24,882 bases of DNA from a virus. Location of the stretch: IMG/VR virus record IMGVR_UViG_3300046009_000036, positions 1 to 24,882 of that record; one strand, written 5' to 3'. Made by a program: the position numbers and the translations under genes. Shown here piece by piece: positions 4,101-22,229 of the stretch. Position 1 is the stretch's first letter. Each line of letters starts with the position of its first letter. Under the pieces are notes generated by a model. It saw only the letters and a program-made list of their open reading frames with translations. It was not told the DNA's origin and did no database searches.

Positions 4101-4349
4101 ATGGACTTAGCATTCGTTTGGAACGGCGCGCTATCGCTATTTGTGGGCTTGTTTGCATACATCGCCCATGAGAAGTTTTCTGAGTTGGCACGTATCACGA
4201 TTCTTTTGAACAAGACTCGTGAGGAAATTGCACGGGATAATGTAACGCAAGCAGAAGTAGACCGTATTACCGATCACATAGATCAGCGATTCAACCGGTT
4301 GGAGACCAAGATAGACCAACTAATTGAGTCTCAGCGGAGAATGTTATGA
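4101..4349 (+). CDS. Small membrane-anchored coiled-coil protein
   Basis: An 82-residue protein. I prefer ATG 4101 over the in-frame GTG at 4086 because GGAAG (4088-4092) lies eight bases before it, and 4101 is two bases after the upstream stop. Residues about 5-22 (FVWNGALSLFVGLFAYIA) form one membrane segment. The remainder is a charged heptad-like helix (RITDHIDQRFNRLETKIDQL) that probably forms a coiled coil. Its TGA overlaps the next ATG (ATGA). One transmembrane helix plus a coiled coil is also seen in small lysis, superinfection or virion membrane proteins, but nothing here picks one of these. It lies away from the lysis genes. Unlike its neighbours it does not end in cysteine. Confidence 0.7.
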   Translation: MDLAFVWNGALSLFVGLFAYIAHEKFSELARITILLNKTREEIARDNVTQAEVDRITDHIDQRFNRLETKIDQLIESQRRML

Positions 4350-5086
4350 GAAAGAAGACTAGGAAATTCGCCAGTGGCGGCGACATCCTGAACACCATAG
4401 GTGCAGGGATGCTCGGCTATGCTCTGTATAAGAAGTTAAAGGGCGAAGACAAAGACGAGAAAAAGCCAGAAGCTGTAGGCGGTGCTGGTCGTCGTCCTAG
4501 AACTATTGAAGAACAGATTGGTCGTAAGGCTGAGCCGAAGGCGGAAACGAAAGAAGAATATCTTGAGAAGCGTGGTGCTAAGCCCTTGCAAGAAACCGGC
4601 ACGCGCGAGAACCCTCTTTATAAAGAGGACGAGGATAAGCCTAAACCCGCGCCTAAAAAAGTAACGCCAAAGGCTGAAAAGACAAAGAATGTAACTCCCG
4701 CTGCGCAAGACACTTCAGGCGAAGCACCAGCAAAACTTGGGTCACAAGGCAATTTTAAATTTAGTTCCAAAAATTTTGCCCCAAAAGGTACTCAATCTGT
4801 TGGCGAAACTCTTGGCATGGTAAAGCCGGGTGAAGCTAAAGGAACACAGACTCTTGGTGAGCGTATCAAGGGCACTATGGATTCGGCTGGTAAAAGCGTG
4901 GTGCGTACCCCGCAACAGCGTATGGCTGATGCCGCAAGGGAAGTTGAAGAGCGTCGCAAGAAAGAGTCTGGTATGAGGCGCGGTGGCGCAGTTAAGAAGT
5001 ACGCGTCCGGCGGTTCAGTAGGTTCAGCATCTAAGCGTGCTGATGGTATCGCACAACGTGGCAAAACCAAAGGAAGGATTTGCTAA
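4346..5086 (+). CDS. Basic low-complexity protein with C-terminal ADGIAQRGKTKGRIC tag
   Basis: A 246-residue protein with a short hydrophobic N-terminal helix (about 13-28, DILNTIGAGMLGYALY). A long, highly charged Lys/Glu/Pro-rich disordered middle follows, then a helical stretch (QQRMADAAREVEERRKKESG). The C-terminus reads GGAVKKYASGGSVGSASKRA and runs straight into the tag. The only cysteine is the last residue. It starts by ATGA overlap with the previous gene and ends by TAATG overlap with the next. The codons for KGR in the tag contain GGAAGG (5072-5077), which serves as the next gene's ribosome-binding site. Function is unknown. The layout suggests a membrane- or capsid-associated flexible protein whose tag is the functional end. 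Confidence 0.75.
   Translation: MRKKTRKFASGGDILNTIGAGMLGYALYKKLKGEDKDEKKPEAVGGAGRRPRTIEEQIGRKAEPKAETKEEYLEKRGAKPLQETGTRENPLYKEDEDKPKPAPKKVTPKAEKTKNVTPAAQDTSGEAPAKLGSQGNFKFSSKNFAPKGTQSVGETLGMVKPGEAKGTQTLGERIKGTMDSAGKSVVRTPQQRMADAAREVEERRKKESGMRRGGAVKKYASGGSVGSASKRADGIAQRGKTKGRIC
5039..5083 (+). repeat. Protein-level repeat: 15-residue C-terminal tag, copy 1
   Basis: Codes ADGIAQRGKTKGRIC directly before TAA. It is identical in amino acids to copies at 5257-5301 and 5796-5840. Twelve of the 15 codons differ synonymously in at least one of the three copies, so the identity is kept at protein level. Confidence 0.9.
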
Positions 5087-5304
5087 TGGCTAAGCAAGAT
5101 AATCGTCGTCCGAAGGGCGATACAGGTGTGGCTGAAATTTATACCGCAGATAAGGGCAACCCACCGCCTGACCCGGATATGGGTTCGGTGAAAGGCGCTA
5201 AGCCAGTCGCTCCTGCTACCCCTACAAAGAAAGCTAAGGGTGGCTACGTCCGTGCAGCGGACGGCATTGCCCAGCGGGGCAAGACCAAAGGGAGAATTTG
5301 CTAA
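5086..5304 (+). CDS. Small basic protein with ADGIAQRGKTKGRIC tag
   Basis: A 72-residue protein that overlaps its upstream neighbour by one base (TAATG). The upstream in-frame TTG at 5080 is less likely than ATG 5086, which has GGAAGG eight bases before it. The first 50 residues are polar and Pro/Lys-rich with no predicted fold. The end is KKAKGGYV plus RA and the 15-residue tag. Cysteine occurs only as the last residue. It is the shortest tagged protein, almost a minimal carrier of the tag, and so the simplest member for testing what the tag does. Function unknown. Confidence 0.72.
   Translation: MAKQDNRRPKGDTGVAEIYTADKGNPPPDPDMGSVKGAKPVAPATPTKKAKGGYVRAADGIAQRGKTKGRIC
5257..5301 (+). repeat. 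Protein-level repeat: 15-residue C-terminal tag, copy 2
   Basis: Codes ADGIAQRGKTKGRIC before TAA. Codon choices (gcg gac ggc att, and cgg for the first Arg) differ widely from copies 1 and 3. GGGAG inside it (5290-5294) precedes the next ATG by nine bases. Confidence 0.9.
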
Positions 5305-5843
5305 TGAAAGAGAAACTACACTACGACGACAAGGGCTCTACTTTTAAAGAAGCCTTTGCCGAAGCCCGCAAAGAGGGCAAGAAGAGCTTTGAGTGGAATG
5401 GTGAGAAGTACAACACCAAGCTGAAAGAAAAAGATAAAGGTCCTGATGAGTCCGAGCGTCCGGCTAGTAAAAAGGACGAGGACGAGGGCGAAACTAAAAA
5501 GCCAACCAATCGTGGTACGGCAGCGGCTCTTGCTGGTACGGGTGTGGCTCTTGGTGCGGCAGCAGCACTTAGCGGCATGAGGAAGTCTGAGCAGGATCGT
5601 AAAGAACGCGCCAGTAAACCCCCTGTTAGTGGGGCTGGCAAAATGGCAGGTTCTAGTCTAAGAGACCCTTATTCTATGAATCTTGGCAGTGATCTAGACC
5701 CTAAAAGAACCATGCGTGGTAACAAACGTATGGGGATTGATAGCCGTGATGTAGAGTTTAAGAAGGGCGGTAAGGTGTCTTCGGCTTCTAATCGCGCAGA
5801 TGGTATTGCCCAGCGTGGTAAGACCAAGGGAAGGATTTGCTGA
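5304..5843 (+). CDS. Basic protein with hydrophobic middle segment and ADGIAQRGKTKGRIC tag
   Basis: A 179-residue protein in three parts. The N-terminal 1-45 looks folded (FKEAFAEARKEGKKSFEWNG, then EKYNTKLKE). A charged linker is followed by a small-residue hydrophobic segment at about 71-91 (GTAAALAGTGVALGAAAALS) that could cross or lie in a membrane. The polar C-terminal part ends KKGGKVSSASNR and the tag. The only cysteine is the last residue. ATG 5304 overlaps the upstream stop by one base, with GGGAG nine bases before it. The N-terminal motif is familiar from uncultured aquatic phages as a short stand-alone domain. Its fusion here to the tag supports a modular reading: different bodies, same tail. 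Function unknown. Confidence 0.73.
   Translation: MKEKLHYDDKGSTFKEAFAEARKEGKKSFEWNGEKYNTKLKEKDKGPDESERPASKKDEDEGETKKPTNRGTAAALAGTGVALGAAAALSGMRKSEQDRKERASKPPVSGAGKMAGSSLRDPYSMNLGSDLDPKRTMRGNKRMGIDSRDVEFKKGGKVSSASNRADGIAQRGKTKGRIC
5796..5840 (+). repeat. Protein-level repeat: 15-residue C-terminal tag, copy 3
   Basis: Codes ADGIAQRGKTKGRIC before TGA. The preceding residues (GGKVSSASNR) also match the lead-in of copy 1 (GGSVGSASKR). GGAAGG inside it lies eight bases before the next ATG. Confidence 0.9.
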
Positions 5844-6271
5844 TGCCAGCTAAATCTGCCAAGCAAGAAAGATTCATGCAAGCAGTAGCGAATAACCCGA
5901 AGTTCGCAAAGAAGGTTGGCGTCCCTGTAACCGTGGGACAAGAGTTTACTAAATCAGGAGGCGGTATGGCATCGAAAATGAATCCCGGCATGATGGCAAT
6001 GATGAAGAAAAAAGCAGGCGCTAAGAAAATGGCGATGGGTGGCTACGCTTCTGGCGGTATGCCGATGGTCATGAAGGATGGTCAGAAAGTGCCAGCTTTT
6101 GCTGCTGATGGTAAGGGCAAGATGGCAAAAGGCGGCATGACTGCATCAAAGATGGGCGCTGTTAAGACTGCTGCTCCTAGCCGTGATGGCGTTGCTATGA
6201 AAGGCAAAACCAAAGGCAAGCAGGTCGTAATGGCTGGCAACAAACGCATGAACAAAGGCGGGTACTGCTAA
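5843..6271 (+). CDS. Basic Met/Gly/Lys-rich protein with a diverged internal copy of the tag
   Basis: A 142-residue protein starting at ATG 5843 (TGATG overlap, GGAAGG eight bases upstream). The N-terminal 45 residues look folded (AKQERFMQAVANNPKFAKKV, then GVPVTVGQEF). The remainder is repetitive, with Met-rich and KGG/YASGG elements. Near the end SRDGVAMKGKTKGKQ (6179-6220) aligns with the shared tag, but here it is internal. About 15 more residues follow, ending NKGGYC. The only cysteine is again the last residue. It overlaps the next ATG by one base. High Met and Lys content with Gly linkers suggests a flexible, nucleic-acid- or membrane-touching protein. No family function is known to me. 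Confidence 0.72.
   Translation: MPAKSAKQERFMQAVANNPKFAKKVGVPVTVGQEFTKSGGGMASKMNPGMMAMMKKKAGAKKMAMGGYASGGMPMVMKDGQKVPAFAADGKGKMAKGGMTASKMGAVKTAAPSRDGVAMKGKTKGKQVVMAGNKRMNKGGYC
6179..6220 (+). repeat. Diverged internal copy of the tag
   Basis: Codes SRDGVAMKGKTKGKQ-type sequence. It keeps the DG-(I/V)-A-x-(R/K)-GKTKG core of the tag, but is followed by 15 further residues instead of RIC and a stop. Confidence 0.7.
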
Positions 6272-6558
6272 TGATGGCCTCGCGCGGCATGGGTGCAATT
6301 AACCCTTCTAAGATGCCCGGCGGGAAGAAGAAAGCCCGTCGGGATAACACCGATTTCACGCAGTACAAAGAAGGTGGGAAGGTTAAGTCCAAGGTCAACG
6401 AGGCGGGCAATTACACCAAGCCGGGTATGAGGAAGTCGATGTTTGAGAGCATCAAGGCGTCTGCGGTACAAGGCACTGGTGCAGGAAAATGGAGCGCGAG
6501 AAAAGCACAGCTACTCGCAAAGCGGTACAAGGAAAAGGGTGGAGGCTATCGTGGCTAG
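6271..6558 (+). CDS. Small basic protein of unknown function (SKVNEAGNYTKPGMRK type)
   Basis: A 95-residue, very basic protein. ATG 6271 or 6274 overlaps or follows the upstream TAA. Features in order are a short N-terminal MASRGMGAINPSKMPGGKKK segment, a KEGGKVKSK linker, then VNEAGNYTKPGMRKSMFESI and GAGKWSARKAQLLAKRYKEK with a Gly-rich end (GGGYRG). The second half looks folded and helical, and I recognise it as a recurrent protein of uncultured aquatic phages with no assigned role. Its own GGAGG-bearing codons (6541-6545) form the ribosome-binding site for the GTG start at 6551, which overlaps this gene by eight bases. DNA binding is possible from charge, but not shown. Confidence 0.77.
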   Translation: MMASRGMGAINPSKMPGGKKKARRDNTDFTQYKEGGKVKSKVNEAGNYTKPGMRKSMFESIKASAVQGTGAGKWSARKAQLLAKRYKEKGGGYRG

Positions 6559-7003
6559 TAATAAAGAAAATCTTGCGCGGGAAAGAAACCCATCCGACAA
6601 ATACGGCAGTATCCGTGAGTTTGGTACTGAAGAACGTATTAAACGCAAAAAAGGCGAAGCTATTAAAGATATGGCTTACGGCGCGGCGCTTTCCCCGTTA
6701 ACAATTACAGCGGAAACTTTGGCTGGCGAAATACCTAAAGAAAAGCCAACCCCGATGGGAGGTGCGGCAGATTATCTACGCACGAGAGGTCGCGCAGCAG
6801 CCAAGGCGCTTAAGGATACGAAAGAATTTATAGGCGACGCAGCTTCAAAATATAAAGCTACCAAAGAACAAGAAGAAGATTTGGACAGGGAGCTTAAAAG
6901 CCAGATGAAGCGCGAAACTCGCGGTATGAAAAAAGGCGGCAAAGTTAAGTCTGCCTCGGCTCGTGCAGACGGCATTGCAATTCGCGGAAAAACGAGGGCA
7001 TAA
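6551..7003 (+). CDS. Charged helical protein with diverged C-terminal tag (GTG start)
   Basis: A 150-residue protein. The frame stays open upstream to 6443, but I chose GTG 6551 because a strong GGAGG (6541-6545) lies five bases before it, and earlier starts would lie deep inside the previous gene. The body is charged and helical (NLARERNPSDKYGSIREFG, KYKATKEQEEDLDRELKSQM). A mildly hydrophobic stretch (MAYGAALSPLTITAETLAG) sits near the middle of the first half. The end is KKGGKVKSASARADGIAIRG followed by KTRA. This is the fifth tag copy, with lead-in GGKVKSASAR, but without the RIC end. It therefore lacks the terminal cysteine of its relatives. Function unknown. Confidence 0.72.
   Translation: MASNKENLARERNPSDKYGSIREFGTEERIKRKKGEAIKDMAYGAALSPLTITAETLAGEIPKEKPTPMGGAADYLRTRGRAAAKALKDTKEFIGDAASKYKATKEQEEDLDRELKSQMKRETRGMKKGGKVKSASARADGIAIRGKTRA
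6965..7000 (+). repeat. Diverged C-terminal copy of the tag, lacking RIC
   Basis: Codes ADGIAIRGKTRA before TAA. It matches the tag for its first ten residues except Q-to-I and ends without Gly-Arg-Ile-Cys. The bases GAGGG inside it (6994-6998) precede the GTG start at 7004 by five bases. Confidence 0.8.
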
Positions 7004-12101: not shown

Positions 12102-12569
12102 ATGAGTACGATTTCAGCAGGCACCACAACTGGCACCTCGCTTGTTAATACAGGCGATACGACCGGCAATTTGGTGTTTCAGGTCAATGGTACGACCACC
12201 GCAGTTACGCTGGATACCGCTAAGTCGATGAACTTGTCGGGCAGTTATACCGAAGGTGTGGTTGCGATTGGTACGGTGACAACGTCGAATACACTGAGTC
12301 TAGCCAACGGCACGTTCCAAACCGCGACGCTAACGGCTTCAACTGCATGTACGTTTACGATGCCGACAGCCACCGCAGGCAAGTCGTTCATTTTGTTATT
12401 GAGACAAGCAGCTTCAACTGGCAATGGCACAGCGACGTTCACGGGCGTTAAGTGGGGTACATCAGGAGCGCCGACAATTACCGCAACCGCAGGCAGGATG
12501 GACATTTTGTCTTTTGTGTCTGACGGCACAAACTGGTACGGCGCAATTCAACAAGGATACACACCGTAA
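12102..12569 (+). CDS. Short fibre protein of module 1
   Basis: A 155-residue beta-rich protein. The N-terminus is MSTISAGTTTGTSLVNTGDT, followed by LVFQVNGTTTAVTLDTAKSM. The C-terminal domain has CTFTMPTATAGKSFILLLRQ, GTATFTGVKWGTSGAPTITA and FVSDGTNWYGAIQQGYTP. The N-terminal part is typical of phage fibre proteins that trimerise. The C-terminal part is a beta domain seen at fibre ends (KSFILLLRQ, W-G, FVSDGTNWYG). It overlaps the following glycine-rich adhesin by one base (TAATG), so the two are likely made together. By analogy with T-even phages, where an adhesin caps a fibre tip, this may be the stem that carries the adhesin at 12569. That is inference. Confidence 0.75.
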   Translation: MSTISAGTTTGTSLVNTGDTTGNLVFQVNGTTTAVTLDTAKSMNLSGSYTEGVVAIGTVTTSNTLSLANGTFQTATLTASTACTFTMPTATAGKSFILLLRQAASTGNGTATFTGVKWGTSGAPTITATAGRMDILSFVSDGTNWYGAIQQGYTP

Positions 12570-14221
12570 TGTTTGGCGCACTAAATTTCATTCTAACCGG
12601 CGGTGGCGGGCCTTTAATCGTCATTGAAACATTTACTGCGACTGGTTCGTGGGTATGCCCTCCCGGTGTGACAAGCGTTGATTATCTGGTTGTGGCTGGC
12701 GGTGGTGGCGGCGGTGGAAATGTAGCTGGTGGCGGCGGGGGTGCTGGTGGATTTCGCATTGGAACCGCGTTTTCTGTCACTGCTGGAACCACTTATACAG
12801 TTACCGTTGGTGGTGGGGGTGGCGGCGCAACCTTGGGAGCAAGAGGCACAACTGGTTCAAATTCCGTATTTAGCACTATTACATCTAACGGTGGTGGAGG
12901 CGGTGGTGGTTTTACGTCATCTCCAAATAATAACGGCGCTAGTGGTGGTTCTGGCGGTGGGGGAAGCGTATTAGACGGTTCTCCGTATCCCGGTGGCACA
13001 GGAGGCGCAGGCAATACACCATCGACATCCCCATCTCAAGGCAACAATGGCGGCAACGGGGAAGGTTCTTCTCTTTATGGGTTAGGTGGTGGTGGAGGCG
13101 GTGCAAATGCGACAGGTGCATCTGCTACTCCAAGCAGTGCTGGTAACGGTGGTAACGGTACTGCGTCATCAATCAGCGGTTCGTCGGTAACTTATGCTGG
13201 CGGCGGTGGGGGTGGAGCAGATTCTCGCGCACCATCAACCACTGGTGGAACGGGCGGTTCTGGTGGCGGCGGCGCTGGTGGTAACGGTGTAAGTGGTCAA
13301 GTTAATGCAACTGCTGGTACTGCTAATACAGGTGGCGGCGGTGGTGGGGCTGGCTACTTAAATAGTCCTCAAACTTTTGGCAATGGCGCAGCAGGCGGCT
13401 CCGGCATCGTCATCATTAAGTACACAGTTTTGCCACAGACCATCTTGACATTCACTTCCAGCCGGTCGTGGACTTGCCCAACAGGTATTACTAGTGTGGA
13501 CTATTTGGTTGTAGCCGGTGGCGGCGGTGGTGGATCAGCTACAAGTGGTCTTGGCGCTGGTGGCGGTGGCGGTGCTGGCGGGTTCCGCACAGGTACAAGT
13601 TTATCTGTAACAGCAGGAACAACTTACGTAGTAACAGTAGGCGCTGGCGGTGCAGCACAACTCTCAGGTAGTAACTCAGTTTTTAGCACTATAACTTCTG
13701 CGGGGGGAGGTAGAGGTGGTAATGCTTTAGTTGCTGGTACAGCCGGGGGTTCTGGCGGTGGGGCAGGAGCTGGTGGGGGCGTAAGCCCTTATCCCGGCGG
13801 TGCAGGGAACACCCCTTCTACTTCTCCCAGCCAAGGTAACTCTGGCGGTGACGTTACTACATCAGCTACGTATGCTGGCGGGGGCGGTGGCGGGGCTTCA
13901 AACCCCGGAGCTAATGTGACGGGGAATCTTATAATTGGTGGCGCTGGTGGTAATGGGACCGCGTCTTCAATTACTGGAAGTTCTGTTACATATGCTGGCG
14001 GCGGTGGCGGCGGTGCAAATAGTAATGGCCCTACTGGACGATCAAGTGGTGGAACAGGCGGTGGAGGTTACGGTGCAAACGCGGTTCCAGCAGAGGTCGG
14101 GGGTGATGGAACCGCTAATCTTGGTGGTGGCGGTGGTGGGGGTTCTCAGCAAGGGGGGCCAAATGCATTTAATGGCGGCTCCGGTGGTTCCGGTATTGTC
14201 ATCATTAAGCTGAACCAGTAG
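12569..14221 (+). CDS. Glycine-rich two-domain adhesin, module 1
   Basis: A 550-residue protein with two tandem glycine-rich domains, A about 20-284 and B about 291-550. Each domain runs in this order: FT-x-S-WxCPxGxTSVDYLVVAG; a Gly run; GGFRxGTxxSVTAGTTYxVTV; NSVFSTITS; a Gly-rich loop; GNTPSTSPSQGN; another Gly run; NGTASSIxGSSVTYAGG; loops; and GGSGIVIIK. Runs of five to eight Gly resemble the polyglycine helical sandwich of Salmonella phage S16 gp38-type adhesins and the Gly_rich_2-type domains of phage fibres. Variable loops between Gly runs would contact the receptor. It overlaps the preceding fibre gene by one base. Two related genes lie at 14752 and 17817. Receptor binding is inferred from the fold type. 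Confidence 0.8.
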   Translation: MFGALNFILTGGGGPLIVIETFTATGSWVCPPGVTSVDYLVVAGGGGGGGNVAGGGGGAGGFRIGTAFSVTAGTTYTVTVGGGGGGATLGARGTTGSNSVFSTITSNGGGGGGGFTSSPNNNGASGGSGGGGSVLDGSPYPGGTGGAGNTPSTSPSQGNNGGNGEGSSLYGLGGGGGGANATGASATPSSAGNGGNGTASSISGSSVTYAGGGGGGADSRAPSTTGGTGGSGGGGAGGNGVSGQVNATAGTANTGGGGGGAGYLNSPQTFGNGAAGGSGIVIIKYTVLPQTILTFTSSRSWTCPTGITSVDYLVVAGGGGGGSATSGLGAGGGGGAGGFRTGTSLSVTAGTTYVVTVGAGGAAQLSGSNSVFSTITSAGGGRGGNALVAGTAGGSGGGAGAGGGVSPYPGGAGNTPSTSPSQGNSGGDVTTSATYAGGGGGGASNPGANVTGNLIIGGAGGNGTASSITGSSVTYAGGGGGGANSNGPTGRSSGGTGGGGYGANAVPAEVGGDGTANLGGGGGGGSQQGGPNAFNGGSGGSGIVIIKLNQ

Positions 14222-14255: not shown

Positions 14256-14755
14256 CCATAGTAGGCAATAACACGCCAACTGCCGGAAGTGTCGTTTATG
14301 GCGACGGCGCTAACTATGTATCTACTGCGGCGGGCACAAGCGGTCAGGTATTAACGTCGGCAGGATCAGGCGCACCGACATGGTCTGCCGCTGCTGCTGG
14401 TGGGGATACGACTAATAACATCGGCTATCTCAACATACCGCAAAACTCGCAGTCCGCTGCATACACTCTGGTGCTTGGAGATTCGGGCGAACACATATTT
14501 CACCCATCTGCCGACACTACCGCTCGGACTTGGACTATCCCCGCAAACTCAAGTGTTGCGTTCCCTATCGGTACAGCGGTGACGTTCATCAATCAAAACG
14601 GCGCAGGCGTGATTACAATTTCAATTACATCAGACACGATGCGTCTGGCTGGTACGGGTGCGACCGGATCAAGAACGCTGGCGGCGAATGGCATAGCGAC
14701 CGCAATCAAAGTAACTAGCACTGAGTGGATCATCTCTGGTACGGGGCTGACATGA
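14246..14755 (+). CDS. Short fibre protein of module 2
   Basis: A 169-residue protein. The N-terminus is a fibre stem-like stretch (MPVTIVGNNTPTAGSVVYGD, GTSGQVLTSAGSGAPTWSAA). The C-terminal domain has IGYLNIPQNSQSAAYTLVLG, DSGEHIFHPSADTTARTWTI, PANSSVAFPIGTAVTFINQN, ITSDTMRLAGTGATGSRTLA and VTSTEWIISGTGLT. That C-terminal domain (N-Q-x-S-A-Y-T-L...S-G...T-W-T-I-P-A-N-S-S-V-A-F-P-I-G-T) is very common at the ends of phage tail fibre proteins and resembles a head or receptor domain. Here it is followed by ATGA overlap into a glycine-rich adhesin, again pairing a short fibre protein with an adhesin. It has the same 20-base start region as the gene at 17241. Confidence 0.82.
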   Translation: MPVTIVGNNTPTAGSVVYGDGANYVSTAAGTSGQVLTSAGSGAPTWSAAAAGGDTTNNIGYLNIPQNSQSAAYTLVLGDSGEHIFHPSADTTARTWTIPANSSVAFPIGTAVTFINQNGAGVITISITSDTMRLAGTGATGSRTLAANGIATAIKVTSTEWIISGTGLT

Positions 14756-16365
14756 GTGGCATTCTTCAAAGTGTCATAGCTTCTCTTGGTGGCGGGGGGT
14801 TCACCGTTGTTGATATATTCTCCACTAGTGATTCATGGACTTGTCCTGCTGGCGTAACTTCGGTAGATTATTTAGTGGTTGCTGGCGGTGGTGGAAGTTG
14901 TTCAGCTTTTGGTGGAGGCGGCGGCGCGGGGGGTTTTAGAACAGGCACCGGGCTATCTGTAACTGCGGGCACTACTTACACAGTAACCGTTGGCGCAGGG
15001 GGCGCTGGTGGCGCGGCGGGTATACAAAGTCAAGGAAGTAACGGAAACGATTCCGTTTTTTCTACTATTACATCTGCTGGTGGCGGTTTAGGAGGAGTTC
15101 AGGGGCAATCTGGTGGCACAGGAACTGGCGCAGGTGGAAATGGTGGTTCTGGTGGTGGTGGTGGCTATAGTCAACCGGGAGGAAACGGTAATACACCGTC
15201 TACTTCACCATCGCAAGGAAATAATGGTGGTGGTTCTATTAGCGCGGGGCCTAATTTCGGATGTGGTGGGGGTGGCGGAGCTAGTGCCGCTGGAGTAAGT
15301 GGAATAACAACCGCAGGTGGCAATGGCGGTAACGGAACAGCATCTACTATTTCAGGCTCTAGCGTAACTTACGCCGGTGGAGGAGGTGGCGGTATTTATT
15401 ATGGCGGCGCAGTAGGTACCCCCGGTACTGGCGGCTCTGGTGGTGGCGGCAACGCTGGCGCATATAACGTCCCACAAGGGGCAACAGGTAGTAGCGGAAC
15501 CGCAAATACAGGTGGCGGTGGTGGGTCTGCCATGCGTGGGACTGATAACGCACCCGATTATAAAGCAGGTGGCGCAGGTGGTTCAGGCATTGTAATTATT
15601 AAATATATATCTCCAATAGAAAGACTTTATACCTTTACAGCTTCTGGTTCTTTAACTATACCAACCGGTGTAACCAGCGTTAATTATTTAGTTGTAGCCG
15701 GTGGCGGCGGCGGGGCTGGTTACACAGGTGGCGGCGGTGGAGCTGGTGGGTTCCGCACTGGCACTAATTTGTCTGTAACGGCTGGCACAACTTACACAGT
15801 TACTGTTGGCGCAGGTGGGGCAGGTGGAGTTGGTATAACTAACGGGTCTACTGGTGGTAGCTCTACATTTTCAACCATTACCTCCGCAGGTGGTGGTTTT
15901 GGGGCTATTAACTCAACGAGTGGAGGCGGTGGCGGTTCTGGTGGTGGCGGCGGACATGCGCCGGGTAATGGCGGCGCAGGAAATACACCAAGCACTTCTC
16001 CATCACAGGGCAACAACGGTGGAAATGGTTCCGCAGAAACAATTTTTTACGGTGGCGGCGGCGGTGGCGGAGCATCACAGGCGGGAGCGCAAGGTTTTGG
16101 CAGCGCCTCCGGCAAAGGCGGAGATGGAACTGCGTCTATTATTTCTGGGTCATCAGTAACCTATGCAGGTGGCGGTGGTGGAGGGATTTACGACACTGCA
16201 AGCCCGACTGCTGGCGGCTCTGGTGGTGGGGGTAACGGCGGAACGCCTGCGGTAAATCCAACAGCAGGGACTACTAATCGTGGCGGTGGTGGCGGCGGAC
16301 AAGGGGGCAACAAGCCAAACGGCGCTGCTGGCGGTTCCGGTATCGTAATTATTAAACTTAATTGA
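14752..16365 (+). CDS. Glycine-rich two-domain adhesin, module 2
   Basis: A 537-residue protein. I prefer ATG 14752 (ATGA overlap with the fibre gene) to the upstream in-frame GTG at 14725. It has two tandem glycine-rich domains with the motif order of the protein at 12569, with domain A ending GGSGIVIIK near residue 284. Domain A keeps SWTCPAGVTSVDYLVVAG. Domain B begins SGSLTIPTGVTSVNYLVVAG, so the Trp-Thr-Cys-Pro of the other type is replaced by Leu-Thr-Ile-Pro. GNTPSTSPSQGN and SSVTYAGGG occur in both domains. Loops between Gly runs differ from the other copies, as expected if each adhesin recognises a different receptor. The N-terminus (MSGILQSVIASLGGGG) is short and hydrophobic and differs from its relatives. 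Confidence 0.8.
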   Translation: MSGILQSVIASLGGGGFTVVDIFSTSDSWTCPAGVTSVDYLVVAGGGGSCSAFGGGGGAGGFRTGTGLSVTAGTTYTVTVGAGGAGGAAGIQSQGSNGNDSVFSTITSAGGGLGGVQGQSGGTGTGAGGNGGSGGGGGYSQPGGNGNTPSTSPSQGNNGGGSISAGPNFGCGGGGGASAAGVSGITTAGGNGGNGTASTISGSSVTYAGGGGGGIYYGGAVGTPGTGGSGGGGNAGAYNVPQGATGSSGTANTGGGGGSAMRGTDNAPDYKAGGAGGSGIVIIKYISPIERLYTFTASGSLTIPTGVTSVNYLVVAGGGGGAGYTGGGGGAGGFRTGTNLSVTAGTTYTVTVGAGGAGGVGITNGSTGGSSTFSTITSAGGGFGAINSTSGGGGGSGGGGGHAPGNGGAGNTPSTSPSQGNNGGNGSAETIFYGGGGGGGASQAGAQGFGSASGKGGDGTASIISGSSVTYAGGGGGGIYDTASPTAGGSGGGGNGGTPAVNPTAGTTNRGGGGGGQGGNKPNGAAGGSGIVIIKLN

Positions 16366-17816: not shown

Positions 17817-19457
17817 ATGCCTTTGCTTGGAACAATAGGCGCTGCATCAGCCCGTGGTTTTGGGCTATTTGGTGCTGCTGGCGGCGTCGGTTTAACCGTA
17901 ATCGAAACCTTTATTACTACTGGGTCGTGGACTTGTCCCGCTGGTGTAACAAGTGTTGACTACCTTGTAGTTGCGGGTGGGGGCGGTGGCGGTGGTTACA
18001 TTGGAGGTGGTGGAGGCGCAGGTGGGTTCAGAACAGGCACAGGACTATCTGTAACCGCTGGCACTACCTACACCGTTACTGTTGGCGCAGGTGGAACTGG
18101 AGGGACACAACAAGCATCGTCTAACGATGCAACGGCTGGTGGCAACTCTGTTTTTTCAACAATCACTTCTAACGGTGGTGGTTTAGGCGCAAATGCGTAT
18201 GGCAGAAATGGGGGAAATGGCGGTTCTGGTGGTGGCGCATCAAACAGTTTAGGCGCTCCAGCTGCAATTGGTGGCTCTGGTAATACGCCATCAACATCAC
18301 CTAGCCAAGGTAATAACGGTGGTAGTAGTTCAATCAGTACAAATAATGGTAGTGGTGGCGGGGGCGGTGCTTCTGCCGTTGGTGGGGCTGCAATTAGCAC
18401 AGGACCGGGCGGGGATGGGGGGAACGGAACCGCATCAAGTATTTCTGGTTCTAGCGTAACTTATGCAGGTGGTGGTGCTGGTGCTTCCTATGCGAGTATA
18501 GGTGGGTCTGGTGGCTCTGGAGGTGGCGGTAGAGGAGCAACTGGCGGTGGAACTACTCCAATAAGAACACCTGAAAACGGAACTGCAAACAGAGGTGGCG
18601 GCGGTGGTGGTGGCACTACTGGTGATCGACCATTTGGTGATGGCGTTGGGGCTTCTGGCGGTTCCGGCATCGTCATTATTTCCTATCAAACACCAGCAAA
18701 CAGAGTTCTTAGTTTCACCACTTCAGGTTCTTTGACCATACCTACTGGTGTGACCAGCGTTGATTATCTAGTCGTGGCTGGTGGAGGAGGTGCCGGGAGA
18801 TACGGTGGGGGCGGTGCGGGCGGATACAGGACAGGAACAGGACTAGCAGTAACTGCTGGAACTACCTATACCGTTACTGTCGGCGCAGGTGGTGCTGGTG
18901 GCAGTCCAGATATTTCCCCATATCCAGCTGGAACTGTCGGTGGTAATTCTGTGTTTTCTACTATCACTTCTAATGGCGGTGGCGGTGGTGGGGGCAACGC
19001 CGGAGAAAATGCAACATCTGGCGGGTCTGGTGGAGGAGGGCATTGGAGTAGCGGCGCTGGAGGCTCTGGTAATACACCATCCACATCACCGAGCCAAGGT
19101 AATAATGGCGGTAGCGGCACTAATAATGCAACAAGTTATTCTGGCGGTGGTGGTGGCGGCGCAAGTGCTGTTGGAGTTAATGCTACCAATACTGTCGCAG
19201 GTAATGGCGGCAATGGTTCTTCTTCGAGTATTTCCGGTTCGTCAGTAACTTATGCGGGTGGCGGTGGTGGAGCAACTTTTCTAAATGCGGATACAGCAGG
19301 TAGCGGTGGCAGTGGTGGGGGCGGGGGCGGAGCAAAATATGGTGGTGGTCTACCTATTTCCGTAACAGGTTCTGCTGGCACAGCCAACACTGGTGGCGGT
19401 GGAGGGGGTGGTGGATATAGCGGCGGCTCTGGCATCGTAATTATCAAACTCAATTAA
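17817..19457 (+). CDS. Glycine-rich two-domain adhesin, module 3
   Basis: A 546-residue protein with two glycine-rich domains (boundary near residue 290) and a slightly longer N-terminus (MPLLGTIGAASARGFGLFGA). Domain A has SWTCPAGVTSVDYLVVAG, and domain B has SGSLTIPTGVTSVDYLVVAG. Both contain FRTGTGLSVTAGTTYTVTVG or YRTGTGLAVTAGTTYTVTVG, NSVFSTITSNGGG, GNTPSTSPSQGNNGG and SISGSSVTYAGGG. Domain A carries SYASIGGSGGSG and PIRTPENGTANRGG loops not seen in other copies. ATG 17817 follows AAGGAACGACT. No signal peptide or membrane segment is present. It probably binds a host surface receptor, as for the other two. The three adhesins could act together or as alternatives on one virion. Confidence 0.8.
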   Translation: MPLLGTIGAASARGFGLFGAAGGVGLTVIETFITTGSWTCPAGVTSVDYLVVAGGGGGGGYIGGGGGAGGFRTGTGLSVTAGTTYTVTVGAGGTGGTQQASSNDATAGGNSVFSTITSNGGGLGANAYGRNGGNGGSGGGASNSLGAPAAIGGSGNTPSTSPSQGNNGGSSSISTNNGSGGGGGASAVGGAAISTGPGGDGGNGTASSISGSSVTYAGGGAGASYASIGGSGGSGGGGRGATGGGTTPIRTPENGTANRGGGGGGGTTGDRPFGDGVGASGGSGIVIISYQTPANRVLSFTTSGSLTIPTGVTSVDYLVVAGGGGAGRYGGGGAGGYRTGTGLAVTAGTTYTVTVGAGGAGGSPDISPYPAGTVGGNSVFSTITSNGGGGGGGNAGENATSGGSGGGGHWSSGAGGSGNTPSTSPSQGNNGGSGTNNATSYSGGGGGGASAVGVNATNTVAGNGGNGSSSSISGSSVTYAGGGGGATFLNADTAGSGGSGGGGGGAKYGGGLPISVTGSAGTANTGGGGGGGGYSGGSGIVIIKLN

Positions 19458-19469
19458 CAGGAGATTTAA

Positions 19470-19832
19470 ATGGCGCACTTTGCTGAACTGGATGAAAACA
19501 ATGTTGTACTGCGTGTGGTTGTTGTTGGCAACGCAGACACTTCTGATGCTAACGGTGTAGAGAAGGAATACATCGGTGCAGCTTTCTGTGAGCGTTTGTT
19601 TGGCGGCACATGGAAGCAAACCAGCTACAACGGCAACAAGCGCAAGAACTACGCTGGTGTCGGCTTTACATACCGCGAAGATATTGATGCGTTTGTTGCA
19701 CCGAAACCTCATCCATCTTGGATTCTAAACGCCGATGCCGTTTGGCAAGCGCCTGTCCCTATGCCGACAGATGGCGCTATGTACACATGGGATGAAGCTA
19801 CTACCTCGTGGACTGTTGTGACCCCGGAGTAA
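19470..19832 (+). CDS. Small tail-fibre-region protein (MAHFAELDENN type)
   Basis: A 120-residue protein starting MAHFAELDENNVVLRVVVVG. It continues with AAFCERLFGGTWKQTSYNGN, KRKNYAGVGFTYREDIDAFV, APKPHPSWILNADAVWQAPV, PMPTDGAMYTWDEATTSWTV and VTPE. I recognise this as a widespread small protein of marine and freshwater phages, usually close to tail fibre genes. Its Trp/Pro/Tyr-rich end looks like a protein-binding or capping domain. AGGAG lies before ATG 19470. No enzyme motif is visible, and a fibre accessory or virion role is inferred. Its TAA is followed by a same-frame gene whose only start is ATT 19836, so a fused read-through product is formally possible. Confidence 0.82.
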   Translation: MAHFAELDENNVVLRVVVVGNADTSDANGVEKEYIGAAFCERLFGGTWKQTSYNGNKRKNYAGVGFTYREDIDAFVAPKPHPSWILNADAVWQAPVPMPTDGAMYTWDEATTSWTVVTPE

Positions 19833-19835
19833 AAA

Positions 19836-20522
19836 ATTGACCCGCTAACCCTTCTCGCTGCTGCCAATGCTGCTGTTGCGGCTGTAAAGAAAGGCTGTGA
19901 GCTTTACAAAGAGATCAAGGGCGCAGCGGGGGATGTTAAGGAAGTACTGGACGACTTAAAGGATCAGTACCAGAAGATAGTAGACCCGACACCTGTACAG
20001 AAACAGCAGTACAACGCGGAAGTCCAGCGGGTGCAGGAGATAGCGAAAGCCGACCCGAATGATGTTTACACCAATATTGGTGATCAGTTGGGTGTGTTGA
20101 TGGACAGCTACGACGCGCTAAGTAAGGCGTTACTGGCAGAGCAGGTGGCAGGCAGCAAGGTTTACAAGGGCGAGGAAAGTATTGGTAGGCGGGCATTACG
20201 GCGCATCATCATAACGACGAGACTAGACGCAATGTTAGTTGAGATACGCGAGACGATGGTGTACCGAGCGCCGCCTGAACTTGGGGCGCTGTGGAGCAAG
20301 TTTGAAGAGATGTGGCAGACCATCGTCAAAGAACAAGAAGCAGCTCACGCCGAGGAACTTAAGCTGATACAGATTGCAAGATGGCGACGCAGAAAAAGAA
20401 TAGCGGAAATCAAGGAAAAAGCGGCATGGGTTTCGGCAGTGGTGTTCGTAGTTATATGGGCGGTGGGTCTAATGTGGCTGACGACAAGAAGCGCGATGAT
20501 GAAGACGTCCCTTGGTCACTGA
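19836..20522 (+). CDS. Membrane-anchored helical protein with apparent ATT start
   Basis: A 228-residue reading frame. Between the upstream TAA (19830-19832) and residue 66 there is no in-frame ATG, GTG or TTG. The coding character clearly starts earlier, with a conventional amphipathic start reading (I/M)DPLTLLAAANAAVAAVKKG. ATT 19836 sits six bases after GGAG (19826-19829), so it is the most likely start. The first conventional start, GTG 20031, would cut off the N-terminal domain. The protein is helical throughout (LYKEIKGAAGDVKEVLDDLK, QAEVQRVQEIAKADPND-like), with a basic WRRRKR before one membrane segment at about 198-216. Its 3' 142 bases overlap the gene at 20381 in another frame. Function unknown; possibly envelope or lysis related. 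Confidence 0.7.
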   Translation: MDPLTLLAAANAAVAAVKKGCELYKEIKGAAGDVKEVLDDLKDQYQKIVDPTPVQKQQYNAEVQRVQEIAKADPNDVYTNIGDQLGVLMDSYDALSKALLAEQVAGSKVYKGEESIGRRALRRIIITTRLDAMLVEIRETMVYRAPPELGALWSKFEEMWQTIVKEQEAAHAEELKLIQIARWRRRKRIAEIKEKAAWVSAVVFVVIWAVGLMWLTTRSAMMKTSLGH

Positions 20523-20686
20523 TCGTCGTAGTGCTGGCGGTGCTGTTGACGTTCTTTATTGTCATGCCGATCTTGGCGTTTATGTACTACGACATGTATT
20601 ACGCGACACAGGCAGCGATTCATGAAGTCAGGAAGATGAAAGAATTACGACGTGAGATTCAGCTTGAACGGATGTACGACAAATAA
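20381..20686 (+). CDS. Small inner-membrane protein overlapping its neighbour
   Basis: A 101-residue protein from ATG 20381. Internal in-frame ATGs at 20426 (AAGGA nine bases upstream) and 20455 are alternative starts. The N-terminal 35 residues are Gly/Ser/Lys-rich and polar, then DDKKRDDEDVPW leads into one long membrane segment at about 45-70 (LIVVVLAVLLTFFIVMPILA). A helical basic tail ends ELRREIQLERMYDK. It lies between a membrane-anchored protein and the holin candidate, so a role in lysis control is conceivable. No family is recognised. The membrane and tail part is downstream of the overlap and is the best supported; the exact start is uncertain. Confidence 0.65.
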   Translation: MATQKKNSGNQGKSGMGFGSGVRSYMGGGSNVADDKKRDDEDVPWSLIVVVLAVLLTFFIVMPILAFMYYDMYYATQAAIHEVRKMKELRREIQLERMYDK

Positions 20687-20695
20687 GGAGCAATT

Positions 20696-21208
20696 ATGCT
20701 AACGCTTATCTCTACACTTGGCGGCTACCTAGTCGCTCTCTTTCCAAGACTATTTGATCTACTGCAAGACCGTGCAGACAAGAAGCACGAGTTGGACATC
20801 CTGCACATGCAGATGCGCCAGCAGTTATCGCTGACGGACAAAGGCTATTCCCCGTCAGACAAGACCGAAGAAGTCCGCGAGAACGACGCACAAGACCATC
20901 AGCAGTACATGGCCCAGATGGGTATGGTCTATGGCAATCAAGAAAAGCTATTGGAATCGTCTTCTCAATGGGTAAAAGATATGACGGCGGCTACCCGGCC
21001 TTTCGTGACCTTTATCTTCGTCCTTGAATTGGTGCTGATCAACCTGCTGACGATGCTGTGGATATTCTTACACGGCAGCACAATCACTTCTGTTGGCGAG
21101 TTCATTCAGATCATGGAGATCGTGTTTGATGCTGACGAGATGGCGCTCTTGGGCACGATCATCGCTATGTGGTTTGGCTCCCGTGGTAACTCGAAGGCTG
21201 GCAAGTGA
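20696..21208 (+). CDS. Putative holin (GTA-type / 3TM-like)
   Basis: A 170-residue protein. It has an amphipathic N-terminus (MLTLISTLGGYLVALFPRLF), a charged helical region at 24-95, a clear membrane segment at about 102-124 (PFVTFIFVLELVLINLLTML) and a second hydrophobic segment at about 148-161 ending AMWFGSRG. The RPF start of the membrane part and the final WFGSRG resemble three-TM holins of gene-transfer-agent and phage type (PF11351-like). It directly precedes a lysozyme without its own signal, which needs a holin for export, and sits in the lysis cassette. AAGGAG precedes ATG 20696. Its TGA overlaps a GTG that opens a 24-codon frame. The holin call is by context and pattern. Confidence 0.68.
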   Translation: MLTLISTLGGYLVALFPRLFDLLQDRADKKHELDILHMQMRQQLSLTDKGYSPSDKTEEVRENDAQDHQQYMAQMGMVYGNQEKLLESSSQWVKDMTAATRPFVTFIFVLELVLINLLTMLWIFLHGSTITSVGEFIQIMEIVFDADEMALLGTIIAMWFGSRGNSKAGK

Positions 21209-21279
21209 TCTATCTAGTCTACGCTAGGATGATTGCTACCGTGGGTATCTGTGCTTATTTGATAATTAATTTGCCATGA
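21205..21279 (+). CDS. Candidate 24-residue membrane micro-protein
   Basis: A GTG-initiated frame of 24 residues, (M)IYLVYARMIATVGICAYL then IINLP, which is one uninterrupted hydrophobic segment with a single Arg. Its GTG overlaps the holin-candidate stop (GTGA, 21205-21208). Its TGA overlaps the endolysin start (ATGA, 21276-21279). GAAGG (21193-21197) is seven bases before the GTG. Exact four-base overlaps on both sides, a ribosome-binding site and a purely membrane composition argue for a real small gene rather than a spacer. It could modulate the holin, as antiholins or small lysis peptides do. No homologue is known to me. Confidence 0.5.
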   Translation: MIYLVYARMIATVGICAYLIINLP

Positions 21280-21761
21280 AACTACCACTTGCTACAATTG
21301 CAATGATTAAGCACCACGAGGGGGTCAGATACAAGCCCTACAAGTGTCCGGCTAAGTTGTGGACTATCGGGGTGGGGCATGTGCTTTACCCTGAGCAGGG
21401 CAAGATGCCAGTCGATCAACGCGACAAGTTCGCACTAAAGATAGAGGACTTCCGTGTATTTAGCAAAGACGAAGTGGATACGATCCTTGAGAAAGACTTA
21501 CAGCGCTTTGTCGCTGGTGTTCTTCGTTACTGCCCTGACCATCTTAACGAAAATCGCTTGGGAGCGCTGGTCAGCTTTGCATTCAATGTTGGGCTAGGCA
21601 CTCTTCAGCGGTCTACCCTACGACAGAAGCACAACCGGGGAGACTTTGAAGGCGCAAAGCAGGAGTTCTTAAAGTTCACCAAGGGCGGTGGCAAGGTTCT
21701 GCCGGGGCTAGTCAAACGCCGAAATGACGAGATTGCCCTCTATTTCTCGGAGCCAAAGTGA
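21276..21761 (+). CDS. Endolysin, GH24 phage lysozyme
   Basis: A 161-residue lysozyme that cuts the N-acetylmuramic acid to N-acetylglucosamine bond of peptidoglycan. The GH24 catalytic triad has the E-8-(D/C)-5-T spacing: Glu15 (KHHEGVRY), Cys24 (KPYKC) and Thr30 (KLWTIGVGH). Cysteine in place of aspartate is the known variant of this family. A following core GALVSFAFNVGLGTLQRSTL matches phage lysozymes, as do the C-terminal FTKGGGKVLPGLVKRRNDEI residues. No signal peptide or SAR anchor is seen, so release depends on a holin. Length is typical. It overlaps the upstream micro-gene by four bases and the i-spanin GTG by four bases. Confidence 0.94.
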   Translation: MKLPLATIAMIKHHEGVRYKPYKCPAKLWTIGVGHVLYPEQGKMPVDQRDKFALKIEDFRVFSKDEVDTILEKDLQRFVAGVLRYCPDHLNENRLGALVSFAFNVGLGTLQRSTLRQKHNRGDFEGAKQEFLKFTKGGGKVLPGLVKRRNDEIALYFSEPK

Positions 21762-22222
21762 ACCCTTGGTTGATACTTGCCTTCGTCTTAGCTGTTGGCG
21801 CAGCGGCTGGGGGCGGGTATTATAAAGGCAATTCTGCGGGTAAATCCGAAGTCCAGCAGCAGTGGGACAAGGAGAAGGCCGAGCAGTACGCCGCCTACGC
21901 TAAGGGGCAGGAAGAAGCGCGTCAACGGGAGCAAGCACTACAAGCAAACGCAGACAAGCTGCGGAGGGACAAAGATGCTGAGATTAGGAACATTAACGCT
22001 CGTGCTACCGCTCTTACTAACAGCTTGCGCGACCGCCAAGCCCGCCCCACCGAAACCAATACCGTGCCCAGTACTGCCAGCGTTAGACCAGCCGGTTGTA
22101 GTGGAAAAGAGCTTTACCGAGAGGATGGAGAGTTTCTTGTTAGGCTCGCTGCCGAAGCAGACGGGCTTAAAGCTGCCCTCGACCAATGTTACCGACAATA
22201 CGACGCCGCAAGGCAAAAGTAA
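21758..22222 (+). CDS. Rz: i-spanin, Rz-like inner-membrane spanin
   Basis: A 154-residue protein with an N-terminal membrane anchor (about 4-22, WLILAFVLAVGAAAGGGYYK) and a long periplasmic coiled coil (about 35-95, QQQWDKEKAEQYAAYAKGQE and following). Cys near 114 and in DQCYRQ may form disulfides. This is the layout of phage Rz i-spanins, which link to the outer-membrane o-spanin and fuse the two membranes in the last lysis step. GTG 21758 overlaps the endolysin stop (GTGA). An o-spanin gene is embedded out of frame in its 3' half, exactly as in lambda-type Rz/Rz1. Length is close to the family norm. The gene symbol follows the lambda name by architecture. Confidence 0.88.
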   Translation: MNPWLILAFVLAVGAAAGGGYYKGNSAGKSEVQQQWDKEKAEQYAAYAKGQEEARQREQALQANADKLRRDKDAEIRNINARATALTNSLRDRQARPTETNTVPSTASVRPAGCSGKELYREDGEFLVRLAAEADGLKAALDQCYRQYDAARQK

Positions 22223-22229
22223 GGAATAG
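21975..22229 (+). CDS. Rz1: o-spanin, Rz1-like outer-membrane lipoprotein (embedded)
   Basis: An 84-residue lipoprotein encoded inside the Rz gene in a different frame. The ATG at 21975 has GGAGGG (21963-21968) six bases upstream. The frame is open further upstream to 21795, but that extension is unlikely. The signal peptide is MLRLGTLTLVLPLLLTAC, with lipobox LTAC and lipidated Cys18. A Pro-rich segment typical of Rz1 (AKPAPPKPIPCPVLPAL) follows, then a short folded end. It extends seven bases beyond the Rz stop. It would sit in the outer membrane and bind the i-spanin. Its presence shows the host has an outer membrane. Confidence 0.9.
   Translation: MLRLGTLTLVLPLLLTACATAKPAPPKPIPCPVLPALDQPVVVEKSFTERMESFLLGSLPKQTGLKLPSTNVTDNTTPQGKSKE

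Follow-up and report, generated by a model that had tools for sequence, protein, structure and literature searches.

Apparent alternation of AUU-type and GUG initiation codons in a family of freshwater phage genes found beside lysis genes

Results

The window, by which we mean the whole 24,882-base virus record analysed here, carries capsid, tail, glycine-rich and lysis genes; the genes and signals described below between 19470 and 22222 lie on its + strand. At the locus of interest the letters read ccccGGAG TAA AAA ATT GAC CCG CTA ACC. Read directly from these letters, a Shine–Dalgarno (SD) core, GGAG (19826–19829), is separated by six bases from an ATT triplet (19836–19838), and between them lies the TAA stop (19830–19832) of an upstream gene, in frame with the ATT and 3 nt before it. 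The ATT opens a frame of 228 codons, counting the ATT itself (227 sense codons after it), whose stop ends at 20522 (19836–20522). The original prediction had proposed that this frame is initiated at the ATT; re-reading of the letters confirmed its placing of the GGAG, the TAA and the 228-residue frame, as well as its statement that no ATG, GTG or TTG occurs between the TAA and codon 66, the first such in-frame triplet being GTG at 20031.

The gene upstream (19470–19832), encoding 120 amino acids (phrog_7759, function unknown), is not part of a conserved unit: a homologue was present in only 10 of 205 loci. Further upstream, directly before this variable region, are three related glycine-rich proteins of approximately 550 residues (12569–14221, 14725–16365 and 17817–19457), each with two copies of a unit of the type FTxSGSxxxPxGVTSVDYLVVAGGGG, and at 4346–7003 lie consecutive small basic ORFs with near-identical tails (SASxRADGIAxRGKTKGRIC and variants).

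Downstream, the neighbourhood is that of a lysis module, at the head of which the AUU gene stands. A gene for a 101-aa membrane protein (20381–20686) starts at ATG in another frame and overlaps the AUU gene by 142 nt in the window and mostly by 142, 145 or 151 nt in the family; it had a homologue in 129 of the 205 loci, with the ATG aligned in 119. Because this second gene lies there in the other frame, synonymous variation in the AUU gene falls within the overlap (pS 0.66 to 0.26, codons 182–226). There follow a 170-aa gene (20696–21208; phrog_6637, function unknown), holin-like by position and hydrophobicity only, an endolysin of the phage lysozyme type (21276–21761; PF00959, E 8.5e-37; phrog_7) and an Rz-like spanin (21758–22222; phrog_312, E 1.3e-15; PF10721). 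Within the Rz gene is a lipoprotein-like frame with the motif LLLTAC (approximately 21930–22229), read from the translation, which fits what an embedded Rz1 should look like. Among 137 loci with at least 2 kb of downstream sequence, a spanin homologue was found in 93 and an endolysin homologue in 39; a GH19-like ‘chitinase A’ lies downstream of the family gene in two loci (L082 and L164), and the two Manatee Spring phages keep this arrangement, with short genes (for membrane proteins or of unknown function) and then a chitinase-like endolysin.

The product of the AUU gene has no family name in Pfam or PHROGs, neither of which gave a family at a convincing level. A structure model of the 227 residues after the start was all-helical, with six helices (mean pLDDT 76.9, pTM 0.51). 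One strong hydrophobic segment, probably membrane-spanning (residues 196–214 with Asp as 1; 20424–20480; Kyte–Doolittle mean 2.29), follows a stretch rich in Arg and Lys, in keeping with the earlier remark that this is a membrane protein, and a C-terminal hydrophobic segment was present in all 190 complete family rows longer than 200 aa. A fold search of the PDB at E 0.001 gave no match, and a viral structure library returned only uncharacterised phage proteins, the best of which is a 166-residue entry, labelled a fragment, with 70% identity. Across Pfam, PHROGs, PDB sequences and viral and PDB folds, homology yielded uncharacterised viral relatives or chance-level matches alone. The gene combines adjacency to endolysin and spanin genes with a membrane segment, and comparison with Pfam, PHROGs, PDB folds and viral structures linked it, by sequence or by fold, to no known family of holins or antiholins; its context suggests a role in lysis.

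Relatives were collected by protein-based scans of IMG/VR, the last two of which were seeded from branches met in a DNA pattern scan, and proved to form a large family of genes in freshwater phages, beside lysis genes, with clades down to approximately 40% identity. At the aligned start, the 362 scored loci (361 plus the window) read ATT in 168, GTG in 124, ATG in 45, ATC in 22, TTG in two and ATA in one. AUU-type starts (ATT, ATC or ATA) are thus present in 191/362 loci, from many separate metagenome assemblies, which rules out sequencing or assembly error at the ATT, including the ATG-to-ATT base error that had been considered possible. Since relatives place ordinary start codons (GTG, TTG or ATG) at the aligned site, the start of the family coincides with the ATT position of the window, as the proposed alignment of homologues was meant to decide, and the ATT at 19836 is, on sequence comparison, very probably an authentic initiation codon.

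Start types were unevenly distributed. The first 80 relatives (77–96% identical) had ATT in 54 cases, ATC in 17, GTG in eight, ATA in one and ATG in none, and the clade of the window (91 rows) had ATT in 58, GTG in 16, ATC in 15, ATA and TTG in one each and, again, no ATG. In remote relatives (approximately 40–60% identity), ATG stood at the ATT position in 45 of the 77 that could be read and GTG in most others; ATG starts were limited to one remote clade and two outliers. In some GTG loci the GTG lies one codon before the aligned ATT position, and wherever this was so and the aligned position was neither ATG nor GTG the start was called GTG, a rule applied also to 14 GTG-ATT-Asp loci, which lowers the number of ATT starts; a single ATT-CTT-Asp locus was scored as ATT. 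An in-frame GTG 19 codons upstream makes the ATT of one locus (L100) less certain. Left out of the 361 were the window itself (L081), loci with the start cut off (L159, L160, L474 and L510), L163 (chimeric end), L164 (remote at 30%, GTG start), L508 (identical to L232), 23 repeat contigs and re-listed loci, and the loci of the pattern scan (L233–L351), which were chosen by pattern and counted apart.

In that pattern scan, with the third base left open, all 41 stretches with the GGAGTAAAAAATN context had ATT; for GAGGNNTAAATN, the 80 listed of 120 stretches comprised 62 ATT, 13 ATC, two ATA and three ATG, the last being remote relatives of 153–154 residues. Proteins of this length in L303, L335 and L345 have ATG behind a strong SD, an N-terminal DP[LF]T motif and a C-terminal membrane segment, and may be remote relatives that lack the weak start.

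A family member in GenBank (MW202462.1) has a start reading GTG-CTA-Asp; its annotated start lies eight codons late (4025, against 3998 in L082, as placed by homology and the GTG). A scan of bacterial genomes gave a single match to the family, at the contig end L163:6001–6302 (RGVM01000128.1, a Chitinophagia MAG), where a piece of the family lies behind unrelated sequence without a family-type start; this contig is probably chimeric. Neither the window, compared by megablast with phage records, nor one related locus, compared with plasmids, gave a match.

Start type has changed repeatedly. A tree built from 277 distinct proteins required no fewer than 22 switches between AUU/AUC/AUA and NUG starts, and ATG could be explained by two changes at most (one clade and the pair L149/L156). 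Within the window clade taken by itself (91 rows), at least 12 changes were needed. In a test of third-base drift on 35 AUU-type rows, 6/42 four-fold columns likewise lacked G; the missing ATG within AUU-type rows is by itself weak evidence, and it is the number of changes that carries the argument. Neighbouring genes almost always start at ATG (119/129 homologues of the overlapping 101-aa gene, 47/48 of the 170-aa gene, the 48th also having ATG once extended, and 44/45 of the endolysin), and among 103 spanin genes 70 starts were ATG and 14 GTG.

A strong SD was the rule at AUU-type starts across the family. Predicted pairing to the anti-SD averaged −7.32 kcal/mol in 107 AUU-type contexts, compared with −1.70 in 62 GTG and −2.75 in 13 ATG contexts, and an earlier subset of contexts agreed with these means. 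Across 15 phylogenetically independent pairs on well-supported branches, the strong SD was on the AUU-type member in 10.3 pairs on average, on the other member in none, and there was no difference in 4.7 (median p 0.002 with the cut-off for a strong SD at most −5.95; median p 0.004 with the cut at −4.5). The link held less firmly within the window clade alone, where three SD cuts gave median p of 0.004, 0.03 and, at the laxest, 0.06. The start codon was also predicted to be more open at AUU-type loci, with a probability of being unpaired of 0.80 compared with 0.37 at GTG and 0.43 at ATG loci. At GTG starts the form ATGTG was common (31/54 contexts tallied), and the frame that its out-of-frame AUG would open usually reaches a stop after four to seven codons.

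The DNA before the start is variable: the 150 nt upstream fell into 72 groups with no detectable DNA similarity between them, of which 52 hold AUU-type starts, 18 GTG and eight ATG, five groups holding both AUU-type and GTG starts. Among AUU-type loci, the first 108 with sufficient sequence before the start had the upstream stop 0–5 nt from the start in 82 cases and 9–30 nt away in 26; the upstream frame was out of register with the start in 26/108, although these are separate tallies and the two sets of 26 are not necessarily the same loci.

Discussion

The explanation that we favour, with a probability of roughly 0.7, is that selection keeps the start of this family weak at the start codon itself. 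It is plausible, and supported by the comparison of relatives, that the ATT limits expression, as the original prediction had suggested. A strong SD would recruit the ribosome efficiently, often aided by an upstream gene ending at the start, and the AUU, being a poor match for the initiator tRNA, would lead initiation factor IF3 to reject many of the complexes formed, such that protein would be made at a small fraction of the level expected from AUG and in proportion to the momentary strictness of IF3. Low yield is what we infer from this arrangement, and control by IF3 is what infC, pcnB, ccpN and sigR suggest by analogy. Other lineages would reach a comparably weak start through GUG and a weak SD, often as AUGUG with a competing out-of-frame AUG, with start type and SD changing together, mostly upon exchange of the upstream gene. 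The low dose would probably fix how much of the protein is made relative to the overlapping membrane protein, or when lysis occurs. The recurrent replacement of AUU by a weak-SD GUG suggests selection of the weak start itself, which can be reached by two routes, and the preference of many lineages for the AUU route leaves room for a regulatory, IF3-sensing role. Weakness is not universal, since one clade uses ATG (45 loci), and the strong SD might make up for part of the weakness of the codon and leave yield at an ordinary level.

An alternative, which we hold to be unlikely, is that the AUU start is a tolerated relic, with the strong SD and the adjoining upstream stop bringing enough ribosomes for there to be no selection for weakness. 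The strong SD at AUU-type starts and the closeness of the upstream stop (no more than 5 nt from the start in 82/108 AUU-type loci) would both suit such a relic, and finding no G in the third position is only slightly out of the ordinary within AUU-type rows (6/42 comparable columns). A relic should, however, drift to AUG or GUG with no matching change in the SD, and what is found instead is 22 or more switches of start type, which almost always lead to GUG and very seldom to AUG, beside neighbouring genes that almost always have ATG, and AUU attached to 52 unrelated upstream sequences.

A more elaborate and rather improbable version of a selected weak start would make the AUU a sensor. The strong SD would load 30S subunits and IF3 would veto initiation until late in infection, when its ratio to ribosomes shifts, tying the timing of lysis to the translation state of the host and balancing the protein with the overlapping membrane protein; lineages losing AUU would then take up an AUGUG site with a weak SD and equal net weakness, never AUG.

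It is very unlikely that a feature of the DNA, for example a junction at which the lysis module recombines with the variable genes before it, rather than translation, keeps AATTGA(C/T)CC at this site. Upstream genes do diverge sharply right up to the start, and AUU and GTG starts seldom share an upstream group (67/72 groups have no mixture of the two), but the letters past the start vary at synonymous sites like the remaining gene, the ATC, ATA and GTG versions break the motif, and SD strength tracks the type of codon.

Two readings in which the ATT is not an initiation codon can be put aside. Read-through of the TAA, or a frameshift, would make the frame a C-terminal extension of the upstream protein, as had been raised for the 120-residue protein of the window, and the upstream frame is indeed in register with the ATT there and in 82/108 AUU-type loci; this scarcely deserves credence given that the upstream proteins are unrelated among loci (the 120-residue one having its homologue in just 10/205), that 26/108 AUU-type loci are out of register, that relatives carry ATG, GTG or TTG at the ATT position, that the TAA-ATT form has no A-run for slippage, and that conservation starts at the start position and not upstream. 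Equally remote is initiation at GTG 20031 with codons 2–65 untranslated, which is what a standard gene caller gives: in 35 distinct AUU-type sequences dN/dS was 0.018 over codons 2–16 and 0.043 over codons 2–65, with synonymous differences of 0.58–0.68 per site in these two stretches, near saturation (pS 0.68), and such strong purifying selection upstream of codon 66 indicates that codons 2–65 are translated; moreover, the first NTG downstream of the ATT falls anywhere from the 3rd to the 89th codon in 109 AUU-type loci, and relatives with ordinary start codons start at the ATT position.

The favoured reading, a start kept weak, has several partial precedents. infC had been named as the known bacterial case of AUU initiation, and it is not the sole one, AUU also being the start of cvfC1, pcnB, IS911 and Borrelia pncA. 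In phage T4, gene 26 has an internal AUU start, of which a literature search, with most subscription journals outside its scope, found no report. Binns and Masters are said to have described in 2002 that expression of E. coli pcnB is limited by its inefficient AUU start; pcnB is a single chromosomal gene and not a phage gene. Initiation at an AUU codon in IS911 was reportedly described by Polard in 1991.

Borrelia pncA also has an AUU start, and its database entries are truncated, gene callers ignoring AUU (PMC13398362). IS911 is a mobile element and pncA an enzyme gene, and the available parts of the literature describe no wide, family-level alternation of start codons for either. At codons other than AUG, GUG and UUG, initiation complexes are destabilised by IF3, an effect on which infC relies for its self-control (PMC5472188; PMC2268962). 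The start of infC is AUU in E. coli and ATC in Streptomyces; IF3 represses initiation from the starts of infC and sigR (GTC) (PMC5472188). As in infC and sigR, the AUU or AUC of the phage gene may, by analogy, be a checkpoint inspected by IF3; unlike infC, which is regulated by its own product, the phage gene does not encode IF3.

One report gives a close parallel in Staphylococcus aureus, where the conserved AUU of cvfC1 and AUA of ccpN, behind an extended SD, give approximately 10% of the AUG level in poor medium and, for one of the two, up to 30% in rich medium (PMC13009471). There too a conserved AUU or AUA follows a strong SD, the weak codon being said to hold initiation low and the SD to aid recognition (PMC13009471). 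However, cvfC1 and ccpN are cellular regulatory genes of one bacterial lineage, studied by ribosome profiling and reporters (PMC13009471), whereas the phage family is known from sequence and its start alternates with GUG and a weak SD. Initiation sites of the form AUGUG or GUGUG in E. coli, at which two overlapping frames begin at one site, have likewise been described (PMC9841429), and the ATGTG often seen in GTG members of the phage family resembles the E. coli AUGUG, but in the phages the AUG frame usually reaches a stop after a few codons. Conserved AUU starts are, then, known in bacteria, and a phage family alternating between AUU with a strong SD and GUG with a weak SD is apparently new, the same literature search, with most subscription journals outside its scope, having found no report of one.

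AUU starts are usually taken to be rare curiosities of a few genes, and here a single phage family holds 191 AUU-type starts in 362 loci. The quantitative exchange of codon strength for SD strength, seen many times over, amounts to a natural experiment on the tuning of initiation strength, and the family is a ready set of sequences for the study of IF3 control in phage infection. It also exposes a systematic fault of annotation: callers that accept only ATG, GTG and TTG trim from a few to almost 90 residues from proteins of the family.

Two further signals at the start were considered and rejected. An out-of-frame UUG within AUUG is not required, being absent from the 22 ATC loci and the one ATA locus, and a −35-like TTGACC, considered from the letters alone, was dropped as the ATC loci lack it. 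Codon 4 of the AUU gene (19848–19850) is CTA in 64/92 distinct sequences of the window clade, compared with 176/1569 Leu codons elsewhere; with A after it, this CTA creates a +1-frame TAA, which ends a mini-frame that possibly starts at an overlapping UUG or AUG, although the excess of CTA may reflect early-codon bias alone.
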